Part shown: positions 30,181-39,392 of the stretch, piece by piece
How the letters are laid out: each line of letters begins with the position of its first letter
Position numbering within the stretch: position 1 is the stretch's first letter
NCBI GenBank assembly: GCA_020628085.1
Contig: JAHDFQ010000008.1
Span: 1-58,129 of the forward strand
Source of the DNA: Saprospiraceae bacterium
GTDB taxonomy: Bacteria; Bacteroidota; Bacteroidia; Chitinophagales; Saprospiraceae
Reading direction: 5' to 3'
Length of the DNA: 58,129 nt
Made by a program: the position numbers and the translations under genes
Notes under the pieces: generated by a model
What the model saw: only the letters and a program-made list of their open reading frames with translations
Told to the model about the DNA's origin: nothing
The model's database searches: none

Positions 30181-31929
30181 CTATTCCCACTTCAATCTTT
30201 CTACTGACCTTAATCGCCCAACAGGATATAAATTATGGGTGGGTTCATAGTGTGGTGTACGTTCATATACAAAATTGAGTTGAGCATATCCGTCTTTCGC
30301 AAATTCAGGATCGTCACGTTTCTTTTGTTCTAAAGCTGTTTTTAAATCAGGATTTTTAGCTAAATATTCAGCAGCTAAATCTTCAAAAACATAGGCTGAA
30401 AAATGCTCTTTCTGCATTAAAATACCATCAAAAAAGTTCCAAGCAAAGAACGAGTCAGGTGCTTGCGGTTCTAGCGTTTCCACAATGTAACGATTTGATG
30501 TTTGGTCGGTAAAAACCACGTAATCGCCCTCATGATATGTCCATTCTGTCGATTCTGTATTCACTTTTGTATCGTAATGCAAATAATGCCCTTCATAAGC
30601 ATTCCGAGTCTTAAAATCTTTAATCCGATACATTTCAACATCCAAAACCTGATCTGTTATGAGACGATGAACCGTTACACCATTCCAGCGTAAACGTTCC
30701 ACAACTTCTTGGTAGGCTTGTGGAATGATGTAAGCCACAGGTTTTTTGATACTCAAAGTTGGTTGATAATATCTAAAATAGGGAATCTCCTTTTCGTAAG
30801 GCGCATCATGATCGTAGTACAAACGATCTAATCCCGAAACGACACTTAGTTTATATTTAGCTGCGTAACCTTTAAAAAGTATGGTGTCTTGTCGTTCACG
30901 GTCAAGTGTCCAATTTAAATCAAACGTCGTTTGGTTAGGTACTTCCTCGAAGACTTTTGCACGAGCTGCTTGAATTTTATCTTTTTGCAAATGCATCGCA
31001 TTCAACATACTTGCCATAAAATGATAGGTGCTTTTAACACGATCTTGGTAAGGTTTGAGCATGTGTGTTTCGGGCATAAACGAAATCGCATGATGCACAG
31101 CTGCATAACCAGAAGAATATCTCGGCAAATCCAAAAATGCTGCGATACCATCATCGGGTGTGTTGCGAGCGTACACATACGGCGTCATTTCCCAATTGCG
31201 CTGTTCCATATCTTCGGATAAAAAAGGCAATAATTGATCCGTCATATAATCCGATAAAACAGGATGAAGTTTATTTTCTTGGGTGGCAATTAGTGTGAGC
31301 GTATATTGATAATCTGCACCATTAGAAGTGTGATTGTCAATAAAAATATCGGGTTGCCAAGTATTATAAATTTGGTTAAAGGTCTGTGCGTTTCGAGAAT
31401 CACATTTGATAAAATCTCGATTCAAATCCAAGTTTTTAGCATTGCCCCGAAAACCATGTTCTTTAGGACCGTTTTGATTAGTTCGGCTATGACTACCTCG
31501 ATTGAGTCCGCCACCGATGTTATAAAATGGAATACTCACCAAGACGGTATTTTCTAAAAGACGACTATCTATTTTTTCTTGTAAAATATCTCGAATCAGG
31601 AGCATCGACGCATCCACACCACAAGATTCACCTGAATGAATCGCATTATTTACAAACAAAACCATTTTCCCTTTTTTACGAATAGAAGCCTCATCGAAAT
31701 CTCCATCTAAACTTATAACTACCGTATGCAACGGATGTCCACTATCAGTCGTACCGTGTGGAAGCAATTGTAATTTTTTGGGGTAGGCTTTCGCTAAATT
31801 TTTATAAAACTCAATTGTCTCAAAATAGGTTGCTGTACTCGCAGGGTCTTTCTCGAAAGGGGTTTGAAAATCTTGTGCTTGTAGCGTAAAAGAACAACAA
31901 AGTAGGAAAGAAAAGAAAACGGATTTCAT
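30181..31929 (-). CDS. secreted M14-family zinc carboxypeptidase
   Basis: 582 residues. Signal peptide 1-19 (MKSVFFSFLLCCSFTLQAQ). Zinc ligands H98 and E101 in AIHSGESCG and H200 in FIDNHTSNG; LDLNRDF (168-174) carries the substrate-binding Asn-Arg; SFMPETHML probably supplies the catalytic Glu. The roughly 300 C-terminal residues have no recognised domain and no T9SS sorting motif, so a periplasmic protein is likely. Last gene of the minus-strand locus, 51 bases after the TonB receptor with a hairpin between them. Confidence 0.9.
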   Translation of the reverse strand: MKSVFFSFLLCCSFTLQAQDFQTPFEKDPASTATYFETIEFYKNLAKAYPKKLQLLPHGTTDSGHPLHTVVISLDGDFDEASIRKKGKMVLFVNNAIHSGESCGVDASMLLIRDILQEKIDSRLLENTVLVSIPFYNIGGGLNRGSHSRTNQNGPKEHGFRGNAKNLDLNRDFIKCDSRNAQTFNQIYNTWQPDIFIDNHTSNGADYQYTLTLIATQENKLHPVLSDYMTDQLLPFLSEDMEQRNWEMTPYVYARNTPDDGIAAFLDLPRYSSGYAAVHHAISFMPETHMLKPYQDRVKSTYHFMASMLNAMHLQKDKIQAARAKVFEEVPNQTTFDLNWTLDRERQDTILFKGYAAKYKLSVVSGLDRLYYDHDAPYEKEIPYFRYYQPTLSIKKPVAYIIPQAYQEVVERLRWNGVTVHRLITDQVLDVEMYRIKDFKTRNAYEGHYLHYDTKVNTESTEWTYHEGDYVVFTDQTSNRYIVETLEPQAPDSFFAWNFFDGILMQKEHFSAYVFEDLAAEYLAKNPDLKTALEQKKRDDPEFAKDGYAQLNFVYERTPHYEPTHNLYPVGRLRSVERLKWE

Positions 31930-31948
31930 AGATATTTATTTAGAGTGT

Positions 31949-31980
31949 AGTGAAATGGTGACTTCAGTCATCATTTCACT
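31949..31980 (-). terminator. hairpin directly after the TonB receptor stop
   Basis: AGTGAAATGGTGAC (31949-31962) / GTCATCATTTCACT (31967-31980): 14 positions with one G-T pair and loop TTCA. It abuts the stop codon of the receptor gene on the minus strand. The T run is poor; it may be a repeat-derived terminator or an mRNA stabiliser. Confidence 0.55.
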
Positions 31981-34422
31981 TTAGGGTTGCTTCGCCCACT
32001 GATACACCAAATTCACATAAAACGCCCGACCATCCGCAGAAATAATCCCTGGCCCAGGATATGCATTCGCACGACGAGTAAAATAAGCAGAATCTAACAG
32101 ATTATTGATATTGGCATTGATCGTCCAACGTTTAAATTCATAACTCAAACTCACATCATGTACCTGATAAGATGGAATAATACCACGTGTGGCATCAGGG
32201 AAAAATCGAGCATTGGTCGCATCTGTAAAATGTTCTTGGGTGTAGGAGTATTGATAACTAAATCCAAAATTTTGGTAACGCAGTTTCAATCCAGATTTGA
32301 TATTAAAAGGCGGAATGAGTTCAACATTTTTATTCAAAACGTCAGATGTTCCAGAGGTATATTTGCCATTGATAAATGCCATGTTAACGAACAATCGAGC
32401 GTCTAAGGCATGTTCTTTTGAGGTGAAAAACTGCTGCCGTCCTTCAATGTAAGATTCCAAACCATAAATACGAGCATTACCTATATTAGTACGATAAGCG
32501 GTAGCTCGTTGCAAACCACCTGCATCTTCCACAATGATGCTTCCAATACCAATACGGTCATTGTACCGAATCAGAAACAAACTTGCATCATAGACCAAAT
32601 GTCCATCTAACAACGAGCCTCGACTACCTAAATCCGCATTGAAACCACTTTCGTCTTGTAGTAAACTATCCACGATCAAGTTGACGTTGGCAATGGCCAA
32701 ATCCGTAAAATTGATAGAACGATAATTTTGTGAAATATTGGCATACACCTCTAAATTTTCGTTGAAACGATAGGAAGTTCCTAGACCTAACAATGCAAAT
32801 GAACGGGTATTGCTTCTATTGACAACAATTCTTTCTTCAGCAATAGTCATACCTCCTAGCTCAAATCGCTCCTTAAAATACCCATCGGCATTGGTGTCAA
32901 TATATTCCCAACGAATACCGGGTGTAACCGACCATTTTGAAGTAAGATTAAATAAATTTTCAGCAAAGAATGACACATTTTGACTTGGAAAATCATAATC
33001 CGATTCTTCTAAATCTGTTGGGTTTAGAAAACGAAAATTAGGATCAGCCGTATCATCTGCATCCCCTTGGCGACTTTCTGCAAATCCATTATAGTATCTT
33101 GCTCCAATTAAGAAATTATGGATATTTTCACTATTCTTAAACTGATAGCGTTTCAATAAACGAGTTTCTGCACCCCAATTTTGGTAATTTCCCTTGATTA
33201 AATCTCGTTCTCGTAAAGGATCGGGACGATTGATCGCACCTAAATCACCTAGAGCTTCACGGCTAGCATTGAGTTGGAAAATCCGAGTATTCCATTTAAG
33301 CGTTTCGCTGACTTTATAATCCAAATGTAAGGCAGCCAACTGCCAATTGACCTTAAACCAGTTGCGTTCTCTTTTGGATTGTCGAGGGTCTTGTTCAAAT
33401 TCAAAATCGACCAAACCACCCGGCTGTTGCGCCAAATAATTCATATACGTAAAATCGAATTTAGCACTAAATCGTTCCGAAAACGCATATCGAACACTCG
33501 CATACGCTGTATTTTGATCGAATTGGGCATTTTCTCGCCATCCGTCGCCTTGTTTTCGTTGATAAAAAGCGTAATATGACCATTTCTTAGAATGCCCTTC
33601 TATACTTGTGAAGCTGTTTAAAAACTGGAACGAACCCACTGTATTACTCAACGTTAACTTGAATGGTGCATCAATATCACCGTCTTTAAATTGAAAATTG
33701 AGCAAGCCACCAAATTGTGGACCAAACTGTAAAGAGGCTGCACCACGCACAACTTCTATTGTTTTGAGTGCTTCGGTTGGTGGTGTATAATAACTTTCGG
33801 GATAACCCAAGGCATCTGCACTAATATCGTAGCCATTTTGACGGGTATTGAAATTAGACGTTCGATTGGGGTCAAGCCCTCTTGCACCGATTCCGAGTTG
33901 TAAACCTGCGCCGTCATTTTCCCAAATATTTAGTCCAGGGACGGAAGCAAATACTTGACGAGGATTGTTAGTCGCTAGGTTGGCAATCAAATCCGTTAGA
34001 TCAATTTCTTCTGTTTTTTTGGATGCATATATTCCAAATCCATCCACATCTTTCAAGCGTTTGACCCGTAGATCATCCTCTCGTCCTTCCCGAACTTCGA
34101 CCGTTCCTAATTCCACATTAACGGCTTCTAGTTGAATGCGAAGATCATCGTTTTGTTCTTGGACTTCTAATAAAATCGTTTGGGAAGCATAGCCTGTTGA
34201 AAAAATATTAAGGGTGTAAGATGCTGTCTCTAAATCCGTCAATTCAAATGTGCCATTGACATCGGTTTCATATAATCGTTGTGTTTCTACTATGAAAATA
34301 TCCGCACCAATTACACCTTCATTTTCAGAATTGACGACTGTACCGCGCACGCTAATACCTTGTCCATAAAGCCATGAACTCAACAAGCAAAAACAGCAGA
34401 TAAAAATATATTTAGAACGCAT
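31981..34422 (-). CDS. TonB-dependent outer-membrane receptor, FecA-like
   Basis: 813 residues. Signal peptide 1-20, then a carboxypeptidase-regulatory-like beta-sandwich (about 22-100, ISVRGTVVNSENEGVIGADIF), plug domain (about 125-245, with VFASVPGLNIWENDGAGLQLGIGARGLDP and IEVVRGAASLQFGPQFGGLLNF) and a 22-strand-type barrel ending in the aromatic FYVNLVYQW signature. The plug most resembles ferric-dicitrate or siderophore receptors. Its company (imelysin, DUF4856, HTTM) supports metal uptake. Overlaps the DUF4442 gene by one base (TAATG), implying translational coupling. Energised by a TonB such as that at 46.1 kb (inference). Confidence 0.92.
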   Translation of the reverse strand: MRSKYIFICCFCLLSSWLYGQGISVRGTVVNSENEGVIGADIFIVETQRLYETDVNGTFELTDLETASYTLNIFSTGYASQTILLEVQEQNDDLRIQLEAVNVELGTVEVREGREDDLRVKRLKDVDGFGIYASKKTEEIDLTDLIANLATNNPRQVFASVPGLNIWENDGAGLQLGIGARGLDPNRTSNFNTRQNGYDISADALGYPESYYTPPTEALKTIEVVRGAASLQFGPQFGGLLNFQFKDGDIDAPFKLTLSNTVGSFQFLNSFTSIEGHSKKWSYYAFYQRKQGDGWRENAQFDQNTAYASVRYAFSERFSAKFDFTYMNYLAQQPGGLVDFEFEQDPRQSKRERNWFKVNWQLAALHLDYKVSETLKWNTRIFQLNASREALGDLGAINRPDPLRERDLIKGNYQNWGAETRLLKRYQFKNSENIHNFLIGARYYNGFAESRQGDADDTADPNFRFLNPTDLEESDYDFPSQNVSFFAENLFNLTSKWSVTPGIRWEYIDTNADGYFKERFELGGMTIAEERIVVNRSNTRSFALLGLGTSYRFNENLEVYANISQNYRSINFTDLAIANVNLIVDSLLQDESGFNADLGSRGSLLDGHLVYDASLFLIRYNDRIGIGSIIVEDAGGLQRATAYRTNIGNARIYGLESYIEGRQQFFTSKEHALDARLFVNMAFINGKYTSGTSDVLNKNVELIPPFNIKSGLKLRYQNFGFSYQYSYTQEHFTDATNARFFPDATRGIIPSYQVHDVSLSYEFKRWTINANINNLLDSAYFTRRANAYPGPGIISADGRAFYVNLVYQWAKQP

Positions 34423-34916
34423 TATTTTTTTCGTTTCTTAGGCACCCATGCCGAGGTTACTTTAATCAAAATGGGTTGAACGCCTGCTTCATCTGTAATT
34501 TTAACATTCAATTCTAGTTCACCTTTAGGCGTATTTTTAATATACTCAATTTGCTCATCCGTTAATTGAACCCTACCGACCATCGAACCCGTCGAGCGTT
34601 TGACAAACTGTGCATCAATAGATTTGACTAAAGGAATCGCATCTGCCGAAAGATTCATTGCCGTTATCAATACCCCAATACTTTCTGCAATCAAGATCAT
34701 TCCACACGCATGAATTTGCTTCAAATGGTTTTGAACTTTACGCCTATTTTTTAGCTCTGCTACCCACTCGTTAGGTGTCGTTTTTATAAAATTCAATCCA
34801 GATCGTCCAACATAAGGAACGGTTGAACCTAAGGCATAATTCTTTGCCCAACCACGTATAAAGGAAGGAAGTTTTTCTAATTTTTCTATGGAAGTAGCAA
34901 CTTGGCTTTTTTTCAT
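34422..34916 (-). CDS. DUF4442 family protein (hot-dog thioesterase fold)
   Basis: 164 residues, no signal peptide. Recognisable by the pattern GWAKNYALGSTVPYVGRSGLNF, then VQNHLKQIHACGMILIAESIGVL and C-terminal ITDEAGVQPILIKVTSAWVPKK. The family is related to acyl-CoA thioesterases (YiiD/PaaI-like hot-dog fold); no activity is proven for most members. Coupled by a one-base overlap to the receptor gene, an unexpected partner for a cytoplasmic enzyme. Confidence 0.8.
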   Translation of the reverse strand: MKKSQVATSIEKLEKLPSFIRGWAKNYALGSTVPYVGRSGLNFIKTTPNEWVAELKNRRKVQNHLKQIHACGMILIAESIGVLITAMNLSADAIPLVKSIDAQFVKRSTGSMVGRVQLTDEQIEYIKNTPKGELELNVKITDEAGVQPILIKVTSAWVPKKRKK

Positions 34917-34954
34917 TGGTGTTGGATTTGTTTTGTGTTTTGTAGAGTAGTAGT

Positions 34955-34969
34955 CCGACTTTAAGTCGG
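34955..34969. repeat. small palindrome CCGACTT-T-AAGTCGG
   Basis: Perfect 7-bp inverted repeat around one base in the gap between two minus-strand genes. The half TAAGTCGGT occurs again at about 46018-46026, so this may be one copy of a small dispersed element. Confidence 0.4.
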
Positions 34970-34991
34970 TTTACCACTTTTATTTGTAAAA

Positions 34992-35639
34992 TTAATGGGT
35001 AACTTTAATTATTTTGGATAACAGGGTTTCTGTAGTTTCGTTCGTACTAATTTTGAAATTATAAATTCCGTAGGTAAAGCCTTCAACAATATTATTTTCA
35101 ATATCTAGCCTACAAACATAATTATCTTTTCCTATAAAAATAGCAGTCGTATCATTCTGTGTTAATGGAAAGCCAAGTTCAGGAATAATAGAACTTATAT
35201 CTGAGCCGACACGTATTGATTTTCCAATTACTATATCTTTTGCAGTTAAATTCAACTCTATAAAAGTTTGATCTTGATCTTCTGCATCCCATCCATACCC
35301 TTTTTTATAATAAGTATGTGTAATTAATGTTCCAATTCTTTTAAGTCGTTTTTCTTTTTGCTTTTTATCAAAAAGAGTATAAAATACAAAAAGTCCATCT
35401 TCAGTTGGATTATAATAACTTTTTGAAGGAGCGTTTTCAACGACACCTGAAGTTTGGTAGTACTTCAGTATTGATGCTAATTTAGGTATTGGAAATTGCT
35501 TTATCTTTTGAATATCAAATTTTCGATCTTCTTTAATGCTAATACTATTGTTTTGTGGTCTAGATTCCTTATGTTTTTCTGTATTACAGGAAAAGCATGA
35601 GAAAATAAGCATTGGTATTGTGAAGATGTTACTATTCAA
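34992..35639 (-). CDS. putative lipoprotein of unknown function
   Basis: 215 residues. Hydrophobic N-terminus ending in FSCFSC-N (Cys at 15 and 18), a plausible lipobox, followed by a polar Lys/Glu/Asn-rich linker. The rest is a beta-strand-rich domain (GYGWDAEDQDQTFIELNLTAKDI, IGKDNYVCRLDIENNIVEGFTYGIY) that I do not recognise. Codon and base use is more AT-rich than the flanking genes, and it splits the HTTM gene from the receptor part of the locus, so it could be an insertion into an older operon. Confidence 0.7.
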   Translation of the reverse strand: MNSNIFTIPMLIFSCFSCNTEKHKESRPQNNSISIKEDRKFDIQKIKQFPIPKLASILKYYQTSGVVENAPSKSYYNPTEDGLFVFYTLFDKKQKEKRLKRIGTLITHTYYKKGYGWDAEDQDQTFIELNLTAKDIVIGKSIRVGSDISSIIPELGFPLTQNDTTAIFIGKDNYVCRLDIENNIVEGFTYGIYNFKISTNETTETLLSKIIKVTH

Positions 35640-35678
35640 AATTATTTTTAAATCATATCCTTATTTGATAAAAGCTAC

Positions 35679-37007
35679 CTACCGAAACGGTAAAATCCAT
35701 TTCTTTTGCACAAAACTATCTTTTTCTTTACTCAAATCAATAGTTGGATCAATAAATTGTTGACTTGCACGACTGTTTAGAGCCACATGTGCATTGACCG
35801 TGACAATTGGATCGTCAATGCCGTGATATAAACGATATTCTTCCGCCAAAAAATGAGCAAATTGTAAAATAAAATCAGGCTGAATCGCCATCTGTTTTTC
35901 TTGATATGGCGTTAGGTATTTACTGTTGATAATCTCAGCTTGGTTTCCAGTTTTGGGATCAGTAATAGAAAAAGTAGCCGTTCCAGATTTTTCAACGAGC
36001 ATCACACGCCAACCGAAACGATACCCTTCTTCTGTCCAATACAAATTACCCGAATAGAGGTGATGTCGAAAGGGTAGAATAATTTGTACGAGTAGAAAAA
36101 TAGCAAAAAACGGAATCAATATTTTAGAGCCTACATAATTTTGAGTAGAAACAATTTCTTTTTGAAACCTTGAGTAGAAAAATTTATAGTGCGTTTCCGA
36201 AGGAAAAAAGATCAAGGTGTTAAACACCATAATCAGCGGAAACAAACCAATATTAAATAGTAAATACGTCAAAAAATGAAAAACAATGACCATGGCATAA
36301 GCAAAAGGTCGAGTTTTGCGAAACATCAAAAAATAAGCAATGGTCAGATCATAGATCGCTCCGCCCCAGCTAAAGACGTAACCGCACCAATCTTGTTTGA
36401 AGAAGTAACCCAATAAAGGTAAATCAGCGTGTTCGGGCAACCAAATCCGCAAAGGTAAACCATACACCATCCAGTCTGTATTGAGTTTAGCTAGACCCGC
36501 ACAGGTGTACACAATAGTTAATTGTGCAATAATAACATCAATGTAATACGCTGGAATTTTAGTGATGGGAGCGATTCCACGCCAACGAACATCTAGTGAA
36601 AAATTACGATGTGCTGGTAAAAAGATAAGCAGAAAAGCGAGTACAATAACGAGGTAGTAATGGTTGAGATAATTAGTCGCATCAATGAGTTCTTTATAGG
36701 TAAAACAGCAAAAAAAAATAAAGATAGCTATTCGATAAAAAAGTCCGAATGCGATACAAAGTGCGCTAATAATAATAAGCGAAAAAACAACGTAAATTTG
36801 TGTTTCTGTAGGGTCAGGAATCCAGTGAAAACCATAAAACTTAAAAAAGAAATCGGGTTCCAAATAGAGCTTTTCGATCCAACCATTTGACCAAGCTCGA
36901 ATCCCACCAAACGCCATTAATAATCCGAATAAAATCCTAAACGTCACTAAGGGATAAATTCCCTTAGTGACGTTTAGATAATTAGAAATAGCTTGTTGGA
37001 ATGACAT
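35679..37007 (-). CDS. HTTM-domain membrane protein (vitamin-K-dependent gamma-carboxylase-like)
   Basis: 442 residues. About six to eight hydrophobic segments in the first 300 residues, then a soluble C-terminal domain (from about 320). N-terminal PLVTFRILFGLLMAFGGIR, the stretch YKELIDATNYLNHYYLVIVLAFLLIFLPAHR (104-134) and TIVYTCAGLAKLNTDWMVYG mark the HTTM/VKGC family, whose animal member carboxylates glutamates using vitamin K. In Bacteroidota this family often follows imelysin-type genes; function there is undetermined. Starts three bases after the imelysin stop. Residues 11-24 are encoded by a perfect 17-bp inverted repeat. Confidence 0.88.
   Translation of the reverse strand: MSFQQAISNYLNVTKGIYPLVTFRILFGLLMAFGGIRAWSNGWIEKLYLEPDFFFKFYGFHWIPDPTETQIYVVFSLIIISALCIAFGLFYRIAIFIFFCCFTYKELIDATNYLNHYYLVIVLAFLLIFLPAHRNFSLDVRWRGIAPITKIPAYYIDVIIAQLTIVYTCAGLAKLNTDWMVYGLPLRIWLPEHADLPLLGYFFKQDWCGYVFSWGGAIYDLTIAYFLMFRKTRPFAYAMVIVFHFLTYLLFNIGLFPLIMVFNTLIFFPSETHYKFFYSRFQKEIVSTQNYVGSKILIPFFAIFLLVQIILPFRHHLYSGNLYWTEEGYRFGWRVMLVEKSGTATFSITDPKTGNQAEIINSKYLTPYQEKQMAIQPDFILQFAHFLAEEYRLYHGIDDPIVTVNAHVALNSRASQQFIDPTIDLSKEKDSFVQKKWILPFR
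36937..36977. repeat. perfect 17-bp inverted repeat inside the HTTM coding sequence
   Basis: CTAAACGTCACTAAGGG (36937-36953), 7-base spacer, CCCTTAGTGACGTTTAG (36961-36977). It lies within codons 11-24 of the HTTM gene, in frame and without damage to the reading frame. Confidence 0.9.
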
Positions 37008-37010
37008 AGA

Positions 37011-38141
37011 TTAATCCGAATCTGAAGGATTATCTATGTAGGTAATAGAAATACAGAGCGTTGAGGGCATGTCTGTTTTTAAGTATAAAACTTGTTGTGC
37101 ATAATCTGTATAAGCTTCACGAACGGCGTTGTTATCGTTTTCAATAGCTTGTGCCAAAGAGGCGTTAATATTATTTAATTGTTGAGCCGCTGTTTCAAAT
37201 TGCGTTAAAATCACCTCGTTCAGAGAAACATCTCCCTTCTGTGCATCTACAAAACCTAACAAGTCATCTAAACCTTCTTTATTTTGACCATTCTCAAAAC
37301 CAATTCCTTTATAAATATCCGCAGATGCTTCTAAAGATGCTTTTAGTAAGTCAATAGAAAGGTCGCTATAATAAGCCTCTACACCTTCTGGATAGGTAAT
37401 TCCGAGTGCATTGACACCCGCAGGATCACCGAGGCGGTATCTTTTTGAATATTCATAATTTTCATTTAAAGCATTGATAATGACACTCAAAGAACTACCT
37501 GCATCTGTTCCTCTATTATCAATGAAGCTAGCTCTATCTGTATTCCAATCCGCCTGAATTGTCGTAATACGATTTTTCATATCGGCAATAATAGCGAGAA
37601 AATAGTTTTGTAGATTTTCATCAGTTTGCAAGGCTGTAACTAAATCATTTTCTGAATTTTGATGACCATACAATAAATAATCTAAAGCAGGAAACCCTTT
37701 ATCGTAATCTAGACTTGAACCCGCTGCCGCAAAATCATACACTCCTGTTTCAATATTAGATTGAATATCATCAGTGTTAGGTGGAAAATTATTGAAGTTC
37801 GCTCTGAATTCTAATTCATCGGCTGTGCCTATTTCAAAATTTGAAGTATGTTGAAAAGTGGTGTAAGCTGATACAAACGCACTTTTAGTTGCTTCTATAG
37901 TTGCAGCCGAAGGTTGAGCAACCAATTCATTGATAGCGTTTTCAAGAGTCGTTACATCATTACCAAATTGATTGTAAGAAGGCGTTATGATATTATCAAC
38001 TATATTTGTCAACAAATCCTGTTGGTCATATCCTTTTGTACAAGTTAATGGATCATTGCTATCATCGTCTTTACAGGCATTAATAGTGAAGAGAAAACCT
38101 CCAATAAATCCCAATAAAATTATCTTTTTTAAATCCTTCAT
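37011..38141 (-). CDS. imelysin-like lipoprotein (peptidase M75 family, Bacteroidota type)
   Basis: 376 residues. Lipoprotein signal with lipobox INAC, lipidated C23, followed by DDDS. All-helical imelysin fold expected: TPSYNQFGNDVTTLENAI near the start is the typical first helix, and YDKGFPALDYLLYG (147-159) is the motif region. In classical imelysins this reads GxHxxE; here it is G149-F-P151-A-L-D154, so the His and Glu are replaced. The family is linked to iron uptake (IrpA) by expression and structure studies; it is not a proven peptidase. Second gene of the locus, 66 bases after DUF4856 with a strong hairpin between. Confidence 0.88.
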   Translation of the reverse strand: MKDLKKIILLGFIGGFLFTINACKDDDSNDPLTCTKGYDQQDLLTNIVDNIITPSYNQFGNDVTTLENAINELVAQPSAATIEATKSAFVSAYTTFQHTSNFEIGTADELEFRANFNNFPPNTDDIQSNIETGVYDFAAAGSSLDYDKGFPALDYLLYGHQNSENDLVTALQTDENLQNYFLAIIADMKNRITTIQADWNTDRASFIDNRGTDAGSSLSVIINALNENYEYSKRYRLGDPAGVNALGITYPEGVEAYYSDLSIDLLKASLEASADIYKGIGFENGQNKEGLDDLLGFVDAQKGDVSLNEVILTQFETAAQQLNNINASLAQAIENDNNAVREAYTDYAQQVLYLKTDMPSTLCISITYIDNPSDSD

Positions 38142-38161
38142 GTTTGGTAATTATTTTAGAA

Positions 38162-38193
38162 ACTAGAAAGCATTTTTCAAAATGCTTTCTAGT
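38162..38193 (-). terminator. strong hairpin between DUF4856 and imelysin genes
   Basis: Perfect 15-bp stem ACTAGAAAGCATTTT (38162-38176) / AAAATGCTTTCTAGT (38179-38193). On the minus strand it lies 14 bases after the DUF4856 stop. It could reduce read-through, so that the first gene is made in excess over the rest of the operon. Confidence 0.7.
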
Positions 38194-38207
38194 CGAAAAA
38201 TTTACGT

Positions 38208-39317
38208 TTAAAACTGATCTTTTATAGCTTCAAAACCATAATATTCAGCTAGTTTATCTTTCGCTGTTTGTAAATCAGCGACAGCTGTATTGTACAAGTT
38301 CATATTTTCAAAATCACTTGATCCAGCTATCAAAGTCAAAATTTCATTGATTTGAGCTAAATCAATTTTACGTCCTTCATTGAACTGCAAACTGTATACA
38401 AACCCAATAGCTTCTGACAAATCGTGTGATCTCAATGCCATATCATCAAAATCAGCGATACCGCCATTTAGGTAGTGTAGAGCCGTTCCAACTGAAACTT
38501 CTTCCCAAGCTGCTCGTGCTTCTGTAATCGCTTCGTCTCTTGCTGTCAAGTCATCGTTGCTAATCGCTGCACGACCTTTCAACATGGCATCCATTAAAGT
38601 TTGGTTTGAATTTAAAAGATCATTTCGTCTGTTGGTATAAGTACCCCAAAAGACTAAGCCACTTGTATTAACTGGAAATTCTTTAGGTACACCCAAATAT
38701 CCAAATGCTTCGTCCCAATGATGCTCCATTGCTGTTCCTTCTCCTGGTTCAACTATTTCATTATCGACATTCATACGATCATCGCCCATATAAACAGATG
38801 TACCTTGATAATAAAAACAAGCACCCATCAACCCTTTTTCGATAACTTGTGCATGATCGAGTCCATCTTCACCAACTAGATATGATTTTGCACCGTCGTT
38901 GCTTTCAATGACACCAGAAACACCTTCCGAACCAGCTACAGTTGATGCACTTGCTGCTGCTAATTCATCAATCAAGGCTTCAAAGTCAGTTTGAACAGCC
39001 TCGAACGTTTTACTTTTAATTTGCTTTGGATATTCTTGTGAAAATCCAGCACCTTCTGCATTCGCAAACATGGCTTTCATGCGATCAGCGTCTAAAGCAA
39101 CTCCCATCGTTTTGGAAGTTCCCATATATGCTTTCCACTCTGTCAACATATTTAAACGACTTGTTTGTCCTGTATAGCTAACGTTGTCAAAGTTGTAGAA
39201 TGTAGGTATTTCGTAAGAAGGAGCTACATCTACATTAACATCATCTTCCATATTGCAAGAAGCCAACATAGAAATAATGAATAGCAAAAATAAGTTTTTT
39301 AGGTATAAATTTTTCAT
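38208..39317 (-). CDS. DUF4856 lipoprotein of an iron-associated locus
   Basis: 369 residues. Lipobox LASC, lipidated C21, then an acidic linker. FDNVSYTGQTSRLNMLTEW and EHHWDEAFGYLGVPKEFP (198-215) are characteristic of DUF4856, a Bacteroidota family usually found beside imelysin. The HWDE element (H200-E203) has the HxxE spacing of the imelysin GxHxxE motif, and the protein is predicted helical, so a related metal-binding fold is possible (inference). First gene of the locus, directly after a good promoter. Confidence 0.85.
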   Translation of the reverse strand: MKNLYLKNLFLLFIISMLASCNMEDDVNVDVAPSYEIPTFYNFDNVSYTGQTSRLNMLTEWKAYMGTSKTMGVALDADRMKAMFANAEGAGFSQEYPKQIKSKTFEAVQTDFEALIDELAAASASTVAGSEGVSGVIESNDGAKSYLVGEDGLDHAQVIEKGLMGACFYYQGTSVYMGDDRMNVDNEIVEPGEGTAMEHHWDEAFGYLGVPKEFPVNTSGLVFWGTYTNRRNDLLNSNQTLMDAMLKGRAAISNDDLTARDEAITEARAAWEEVSVGTALHYLNGGIADFDDMALRSHDLSEAIGFVYSLQFNEGRKIDLAQINEILTLIAGSSDFENMNLYNTAVADLQTAKDKLAEYYGFEAIKDQF

Positions 39318-39338
39318 GGTTTAATATAGTTATTTTTA

Positions 39339-39355
39339 TTTAGATCAATTCTTAA
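39339..39355. promoter_or_regulatory. possible Fur-like operator in the leader of the DUF4856 locus
   Basis: TTTAGATCAATTCTTAA is a 17-base imperfect palindrome (TTAAGA-N5-TCTAAA on the minus strand, one mismatch) just downstream of the -7 box. Position and AT-rich dyad would suit an iron-responsive repressor; no consensus for this organism is known to me. Confidence 0.25.
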
Positions 39356-39361
39356 TAAGCA

Positions 39362-39392
39362 CAAATATAGAAGAGGATTTGACTTTATACAA
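39362..39392 (-). promoter_or_regulatory. promoter of the DUF4856-imelysin-HTTM locus
   Basis: On the minus strand: TTG (39390-39392), 20-base spacer, TATATTTG (39362-39369), a full match to the Bacteroidota consensus, 45 bases before the DUF4856 ATG. Confidence 0.75.

Follow-up and report, generated by a model that had tools for sequence, protein, structure and literature searches.

A gamma-carboxylase relative in a conserved, probably iron-regulated imelysin and TonB receptor cassette of Bacteroidota

What does a relative of human vitamin K-dependent gamma-carboxylase (GGCX) do in a row of bacterial genes for two lipoproteins and a TonB-dependent receptor? To our knowledge, the role of bacterial GGCX relatives is not settled. 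The biochemical role of imelysins, the family to which one of the two lipoproteins belongs, is called poorly understood in the excerpted text of PMC3143127. The locus that raises the question lies in a stretch of 58,129 nucleotides (the window) from a Saprospiraceae genome of 5.0 Mb in 284 contigs. A first-pass annotation had described seven genes behind one promoter, and had proposed that they form a metal-uptake system in which the gamma-carboxylase-like protein modifies carboxylates of the lipoproteins. All seven were recovered by open reading frame (ORF) and Pfam matches, each in its place on the minus strand, and the features of the locus are as follows.

39362–39392, minus strand: Bacteroidota-type promoter, read by eye, with −33 TTG (39390–39392), a 20-nt spacer and −7 TATATTTG (39362–39369)
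39336–39358, minus strand: palindromic operator TTATTTAGA-N5-TCTAAATAA, one mismatch, near the expected transcription start
38208–39317, minus strand: DUF4856 lipoprotein, helical (PF16148, 1.1e-35)
38162–38193, minus strand: hairpin between the DUF4856 and imelysin genes, 15-nt perfect stem
37011–38141, minus strand: imelysin (M75) lipoprotein, IPPA-like (PF09375, 1.4e-34)
35679–37007, minus strand: VKGC, that is HTTM plus the vitamin K-dependent gamma-carboxylase lumenal domain (PF05090, 1.5e-71; PF22777, 5e-52; both over the cut-off)
36937–36977: perfect 18-nt inverted repeat with a 5-nt loop, terminator-like, within the start of the VKGC coding sequence
34992–35639, minus strand: lipoprotein-like ORF with a TTG start and no Pfam family; local insertion, not core
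34422–34916, minus strand: DUF4442 protein; local insertion, not core
31981–34422, minus strand: FecA-like TonB-dependent receptor; core
31949–31980: inverted repeat between the receptor and M14 genes
30181–31929, minus strand: M14 carboxypeptidase; downstream neighbour, not core

The promoter expected ahead of the DUF4856 gene is represented by the −33/−7 pair, assigned by eye with the Bacteroidota consensus as guide. The inverted repeat downstream of the receptor gene may separate the M14 gene from the operon.

The HTTM protein is a genuine GGCX-family enzyme with its catalytic residues intact and a putative carboxylase activity; both Pfam parts, the kept residues and the fold bear out the relationship to gamma-carboxylases that had been suggested. 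The window VKGC matches human GGCX chains at ~3e-32, in two stretches. Its AlphaFold model (pLDDT 82, pTM 0.83) aligns with GGCX (VIA) at Z 30.2 and an rmsd of 2.7 Å over 426 of its 442 residues, covering human 43–506, while the best unrelated chain (VIA) reaches Z 5.5; most of the linker by the active site (324–337) has a pLDDT <50. With human numbering taken from the excerpted text of PMC12589487 and from an alignment of the window VKGC with GGCX, window residues K174, H116, N115 and W179 are equivalent to K218, H160, N159 and W223, and F243, F251 and F256 to F286, F294 and F299. According to the same excerpt, K218 is the catalytic base, N159 and H160 belong to the Glu pocket, and W223, F286 and F299 form the quinone pocket. 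All six are identical in the 65 VKGCs of our survey (48 from cassettes, 17 others), and F294, likewise of the quinone pocket, is kept in 64. The position of Y395 (window Y329) holds Tyr in 38 and Phe in 10 of the 48 cassette VKGCs and mostly His in the others. Other positions differ from the human enzyme: K217, to which PMC12589487 in the excerpted part assigns substrate binding rather than catalysis, is Ala (window A173) in all 48 cassette VKGCs and in 16 of the 17 others, N158 is Leu and N290 is Thr in cassette VKGCs, and M401 is Val in all 48. T247 and V335 are residues of their own, present throughout the 48. Nothing in the VKGC model matches the human residues after 506, among which are the arch and some of the propeptide-binding domain. 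We conclude that K217 and the C-terminal propeptide-binding part mark animal GGCX rather than the whole GGCX/VKGC family.

How far the gene order reaches was seen in 247 Bacteroidota genomes of at least 90% completeness, searched with the Pfam families of imelysin, DUF4856 and the VKGC lumenal domain. There are 65 VKGC genes in 56 of the genomes; by these matches 47 of the 65 are preceded, at a distance of about 1 kb, by a same-strand imelysin, 35 of them by DUF4856 as well, and 36 of 39 DUF4856 genes adjoin a VKGC. The remaining three DUF4856 genes are without VKGC, and one of them adjoins a receptor. An imelysin at −5520 in genome G084, counted as near, belongs to a second operon, and that genome also has a cassette imelysin. 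Three VKGC matches carry an internal stop, and one VKGC (L112) is split over two ORFs, the first of which alone was aligned. When ORFs of the other 64 VKGC loci were labelled with the window proteins and BLAST clusters, which recovered more DUF4856 genes than Pfam did, DUF4856, imelysin, VKGC and TonB receptor stood in a row in 43 loci (42 by script, and L080, missed because a receptor ORF masked its VKGC, by eye). Four further loci keep the order without a recognised DUF4856: the contig ends there in L102, an opposite-strand gene takes the place in L089 and L090, and L079 has short ORFs only. Together with the window, the order imelysin-VKGC-receptor is found in 48 of 65 loci, 44 of them with DUF4856 in front, across 12 families; conserved linkage in other genomes, which had been named as a test of the proposal, is thus present. 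ORF starts were set at the first start codon, and gene overlaps are therefore overstated.

The same survey shows which genes belong together. Relative to the other loci, the window has two extra genes inserted ahead of the receptor, and the lipoprotein-like ORF, DUF4442 and M14 received no phmmer label in the 64 relative loci (E 1e-4) or in the 17 nearest-relative loci (E 1e-3). These 17 have the same gene order as far as their contigs reach, with three exceptions: L003 has no DUF4856 or imelysin label, L007 has a receptor fragment only, and L008 (Phaeodactylibacter xiamenensis) has an opposite-strand ORF between DUF4856 and imelysin. Lewinellaceae bacterium SD302 (L010) is an environmental isolate that carries the cassette. 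It is well supported that only four genes, DUF4856, imelysin, VKGC and the FecA-like receptor, form the conserved unit, so that the idea of a single seven-gene unit holds for these four and fails for the other three. The VKGC is the most conserved protein of the cassette, with a mean identity of 52.5% over 44 loci against 34–47% for its partners. Distances between cassette proteins correlate at 0.92–0.96, which we do not use as evidence of linkage because common descent alone can give such values.

A shared operator suggests when the cassette is expressed. Its pattern was obtained by searching the regions ahead of 44 DUF4856 genes for palindromes and words. With at most three mismatches it occurs in 40 of the 44 cassettes; shuffles give 0.06, and of 356 regions upstream of other genes in these loci 7 have it. 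Since the pattern comes from the regions in which it was counted, the shuffle control overstates its strength; the other-gene control and the genome-wide sites are not affected by this. Across five genomes there are 39 sites with at most two mismatches and 19 for the reversed pattern, so some of the genome-wide sites are chance. Among 29 operator-bearing stretches outside cassettes (L147–L175), six sites fall in a called ORF, two of the six at the ORF start (FeoA and Fe-S assembly). Ten neighbours were picked by eye: an SdhC-like protein is below the Pfam cut-off, and nine are over it, namely FeoA (2), cytochrome c, NqrA (2), glutamyl-tRNA reductase, Fe-S assembly, a TonB receptor and a CarbopepD-domain protein. 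The hemA gene in these stretches is accompanied by an AraC-like gene. The operator looks like the mark of an iron regulon that takes in feoA, hemA, Fe-S assembly, nqrA, cytochromes and TonB receptors. Because 40 of the 44 cassettes share it with such genes, the cassette is probably iron-regulated, and the response to iron that had been proposed as a further test appears likely, as judged from a site common to iron, Fe-S and haem genes. The operator was found ahead of the ribF-like gene in none of nine VKGC loci of a different type (see below) and at none of the three DUF4856 genes without VKGC, and near imelysins in loci without VKGC it occurs within 500 bp in 6 of 14 and within 2 kb in 11 of 14. 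A fixed promoter spacing around the operator was considered and dropped: TAnnTTTG lies close to it in only 4 of 40 loci, and for this reason we make no claim as to repressor or activator. A literature search on the site gave nothing of use among the matches listed. In a related report (PMC9478572, as excerpted), mutation of the iron regulator MliR lowers one imelysin-like gene and one TonB receptor gene.

Expression within the operon may also be graded. In gaps of at least 30 nt between DUF4856 and imelysin, the hairpin z score is below −2 in 19 of 34. The same holds for 1 of 44 junctions between imelysin and VKGC, and for 8 of 44 stretches ahead of DUF4856. A hairpin after DUF4856 could help its mRNA to stay more abundant.

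The VKGC's partners are of iron-uptake type. The receptor has both plug and barrel, and its best solved relative is FecA (4.7e-20); it does not reach the FecA equivalog cut-off (93.9 vs 1100 bits), and "FecA-like" is an apt description in this sense. A simple lipobox pattern is matched by 43 of 44 DUF4856 proteins and 33 of 48 imelysins, and a Cys at the lipobox place is present in 44 of 44 and 47 of 48. In the DUF4856 family H298 is kept in 43 of 44 and E302 in all 44 members. Its model is helical (pLDDT 89), and its best VIA rows are FliS and alpha-catenin at Z ~8; no solved relative was found by Foldseek at E ≤0.001 or by a PDB profile search below 0.5. A fold shared with imelysin is a candidate reading: the match of DUF4856 to M75 is weak (0.0025 over 45 residues), hhalign aligned the two families over the signal peptide only, and the comparison of the model with 3n8u (Z 5.5) is not above background rows. 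The window imelysin has GFPALD at the place of the GxHxxE motif, and so without the motif His, akin to the GxxxxE that IPPA carries according to the excerpt of PMC3143127. Most cassette imelysins end in a DGD tail, as do three IPPA-type imelysins of peroxidase operons.

From these parts we propose an iron-regulated outer-membrane metal-uptake cassette of Bacteroidota in which the VKGC makes gamma-carboxyglutamate (Gla) on a cassette protein, a reading that we place just short of an even chance; carboxylation by the VKGC ranks first among the hypotheses, with odds close to even. Scarce iron would switch the cassette on, and the DUF4856 and imelysin lipoproteins, once at the outer membrane, would pass an iron complex on to the receptor. 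Earlier, as the lipoproteins move past the inner membrane on its periplasmic side, the VKGC would use menaquinol, O2 and CO2 to carboxylate at least one Glu in a protein of the cassette, with imelysin and DUF4856 the likeliest substrates, and the resulting Gla would serve as metal ligands. We count for this proposal the catalytic residues of the VKGC, the linkage, the operator, the FecA-like receptor and the presence in the source genome of PF02621, a menaquinone-synthesis family (menD is below the cut-off).

Several observations weaken the idea of carboxylation. The lipoproteins had been called Asp/Glu-rich, which is right for Asp and Glu together (15.4% and 15.2% in the window proteins) and wrong for Glu itself: mean Glu is 5.5% in imelysin and 6.4% in DUF4856, against 6.3% in 284 neighbour proteins. 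The tethers of both are Asp-rich rather than Glu-rich, as fits an ordinary surface-export signal, and no Gla-like Glu-rich segment was found in the overall composition or in the tethers. VKOR, considered as a partner of the VKGC, shows no association: it occurs in 11 of the 56 genomes that have a VKGC and in 47 of the 191 that have none (counted by hand), and the source genome has 0. The loss of K217 and of the part after human 506 counts against it as well, as do a lone VKGC in one genome and the nine ribF-side VKGCs (both treated below) and the three DUF4856 genes without VKGC. A Glu specific to VKGC-linked imelysins was sought as the modification site and none is clear. E230 is Glu in 47 of 48 VKGC-linked imelysins; one comparison group has Asp or Glu there in 9 of its 11 members, and six other imelysins do not conserve it. 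E255 is Glu in all 48 and in 11 of 11 of one comparison group, and the acidic DGD tail is shared with three IPPA-type imelysins of peroxidase operons. E230 and E255 of imelysin and E302 of DUF4856 remain candidate modification sites.

The alternative that survives best comes from imelysins that have no VKGC. Twenty imelysins are not near a VKGC, and 17 of them lie in the 14 loci examined, the three left out being those of G136 (contig cut), G105:C3 (weak) and G154 (inside L061). In 13 of these 14 loci a protein of ~460 aa with two CxxCH motifs is close to the imelysin, and all three such proteins tested are DHOR (PF06537). Only 2 of 46 VKGC cassettes have one nearby, both beside a second imelysin, and the window cassette contains no DHOR/EfeB peroxidase partner. 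On these counts VKGC and DHOR look like alternative imelysin partners, operon by operon. Imelysins are tied to EfeB-like peroxidases by Xu 2011 (PMC3143127, as excerpted). The VKGC might then be the redox partner of imelysin rather than a protein carboxylase, performing menaquinol/O2 chemistry on an iron complex or ligand in DHOR's place, which we regard as unlikely, though worth keeping in mind. It sits poorly with the Glu pocket, whose residues N159, H160 and Tyr or Phe at 395 are kept; quinol oxidation alone would have no use for them. We also know of no metal reduction among the chemistry of GGCX.

A second alternative places the substrate of the VKGC outside the cassette, with operon membership serving co-regulation only, and it draws on VKGCs that live elsewhere. 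Nine VKGCs of family f5 (L078, L082, L085, L091, L092, L094, L095, L104, L106) follow a ribF-like gene without any cassette partner, and a serS-like gene is downstream in seven of the nine (ribF and serS named by eye from sequence). They form one clade (100/100) and keep N158 as in human GGCX. In genome G108 (L087) a VKGC without the three partners, together with a degenerate site that differs from the operator by four mismatches, occupies the chromosomal position of the full cassette in the related G203 (L074). In a tree of 68 VKGCs, 49 cassette members stand on one side of a 100/100 branch together with this one orphan, whose position indicates a loss of linkage; the 48 cassette VKGCs from genomes in the tree represent 12 families. 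Such lone genes speak for an outside substrate, but the cassette VKGCs are one group with T247 and V335 of their own and a single loss of linkage on the tree, and the IPPA-type imelysin that G108 has elsewhere, in a peroxidase operon, could itself be the substrate. We consider this reading rather unlikely, a rank below that of a redox partner. The source genome has a second VKGC gene, on contig C142 (L105), which is outside the cassette group and adjoins an acetyltransferase-like gene (by eye). Outside Bacteroidota and among plasmids, four plasmid records match VKGC. On a Paracoccus albus plasmid (L176) no imelysin is annotated within 15 kb, and this alphaproteobacterial VKGC-type HTTM protein adjoins DUF393 and AraC genes. 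A Bernardetia plasmid has no cassette within 13 kb of its VKGC, and Persicobacter plasmid NZ_AP025293 has two imelysin-type ORFs ahead of the VKGC and no receptor match within 11 kb; the fourth record is also from Persicobacter.

The VKGC could also be a non-catalytic helper in assembly of the lipoproteins or the receptor. That no substrate is known, and that the protein lacks K217 and some of the propeptide site, would suit such a role; the catalytic Lys, the His and the quinone pocket are nevertheless invariant, and the VKGC is more conserved than any of its cassette partners, which makes a helper improbable. That all seven genes are one system including thioesterase-fold and carboxypeptidase parts is very improbable, for although they share a strand and short gaps in the window, three of them have no relative in the 64 and 17 related loci and an inverted repeat stands ahead of M14.

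Returning to the cassette and the Gla that it may make for metal uptake, we can set it beside known systems. The VKGC shares with human GGCX the HTTM and lumenal domains, the fold, the catalytic Lys, His and Asn and the quinone pocket. It differs in that it ends at human 506, without the later propeptide-binding and arch parts, has Ala for K217, Leu for N158 and Val for M401, and adjoins genes of iron-uptake type; the absence of VKOR from the source genome sets it apart from a vertebrate-type vitamin K cycle. The Leptospira carboxylase homologue is, by description, another bacterial GGCX relative, with a presumed horizontal origin (PMC4555120, as excerpted). Closer in layout are the ICMP-DHOR-IPPA operons (Pseudomonas aeruginosa PA4370-PA4373), in which, going by the excerpt of PMC3143127, two imelysin-type proteins and one redox-type enzyme are encoded under Fur regulation. 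The cassette imelysin is IPPA-like with a DGD tail, whereas in the cassette VKGC replaces DHOR, DUF4856 replaces ICMP, and the receptor is within the operon. The FecA ferric dicitrate receptor is the nearest solved counterpart of a cassette receptor that falls far below the equivalog cut-off. A FecA homologue and four imelysin-like lipoproteins are abundant in Tenacibaculum maritimum vesicles (PMC10288586); the resemblance is by description, and no VKGC is named in the excerpt of that paper. In a search of the open-access literature, with most subscription papers outside its scope, we found no paper with imelysin and DUF4856, with imelysin and HTTM, or with DUF4856, and two that mention an HTTM domain.

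A GGCX relative thus has three partners in an operon that is conserved widely and appears to be regulated by iron, so that its substrate and function can be tested directly. For imelysins, the VKGC adds a second enzyme partner to the di-haem peroxidase. The complete chain of a bacterial Gla system, from iron shortage through a menaquinol-driven gamma-carboxylase to Gla on surface lipoproteins that feed a FecA-like receptor, is a tentative picture, and we think it somewhat more doubtful than probable. If it is true, the family of the blood-clotting enzyme helps bacteria to capture metal, and imelysins or DUF4856 proteins are its bacterial substrates. The cassette hints at such a use of vitamin-K chemistry for metal capture in bacteria.
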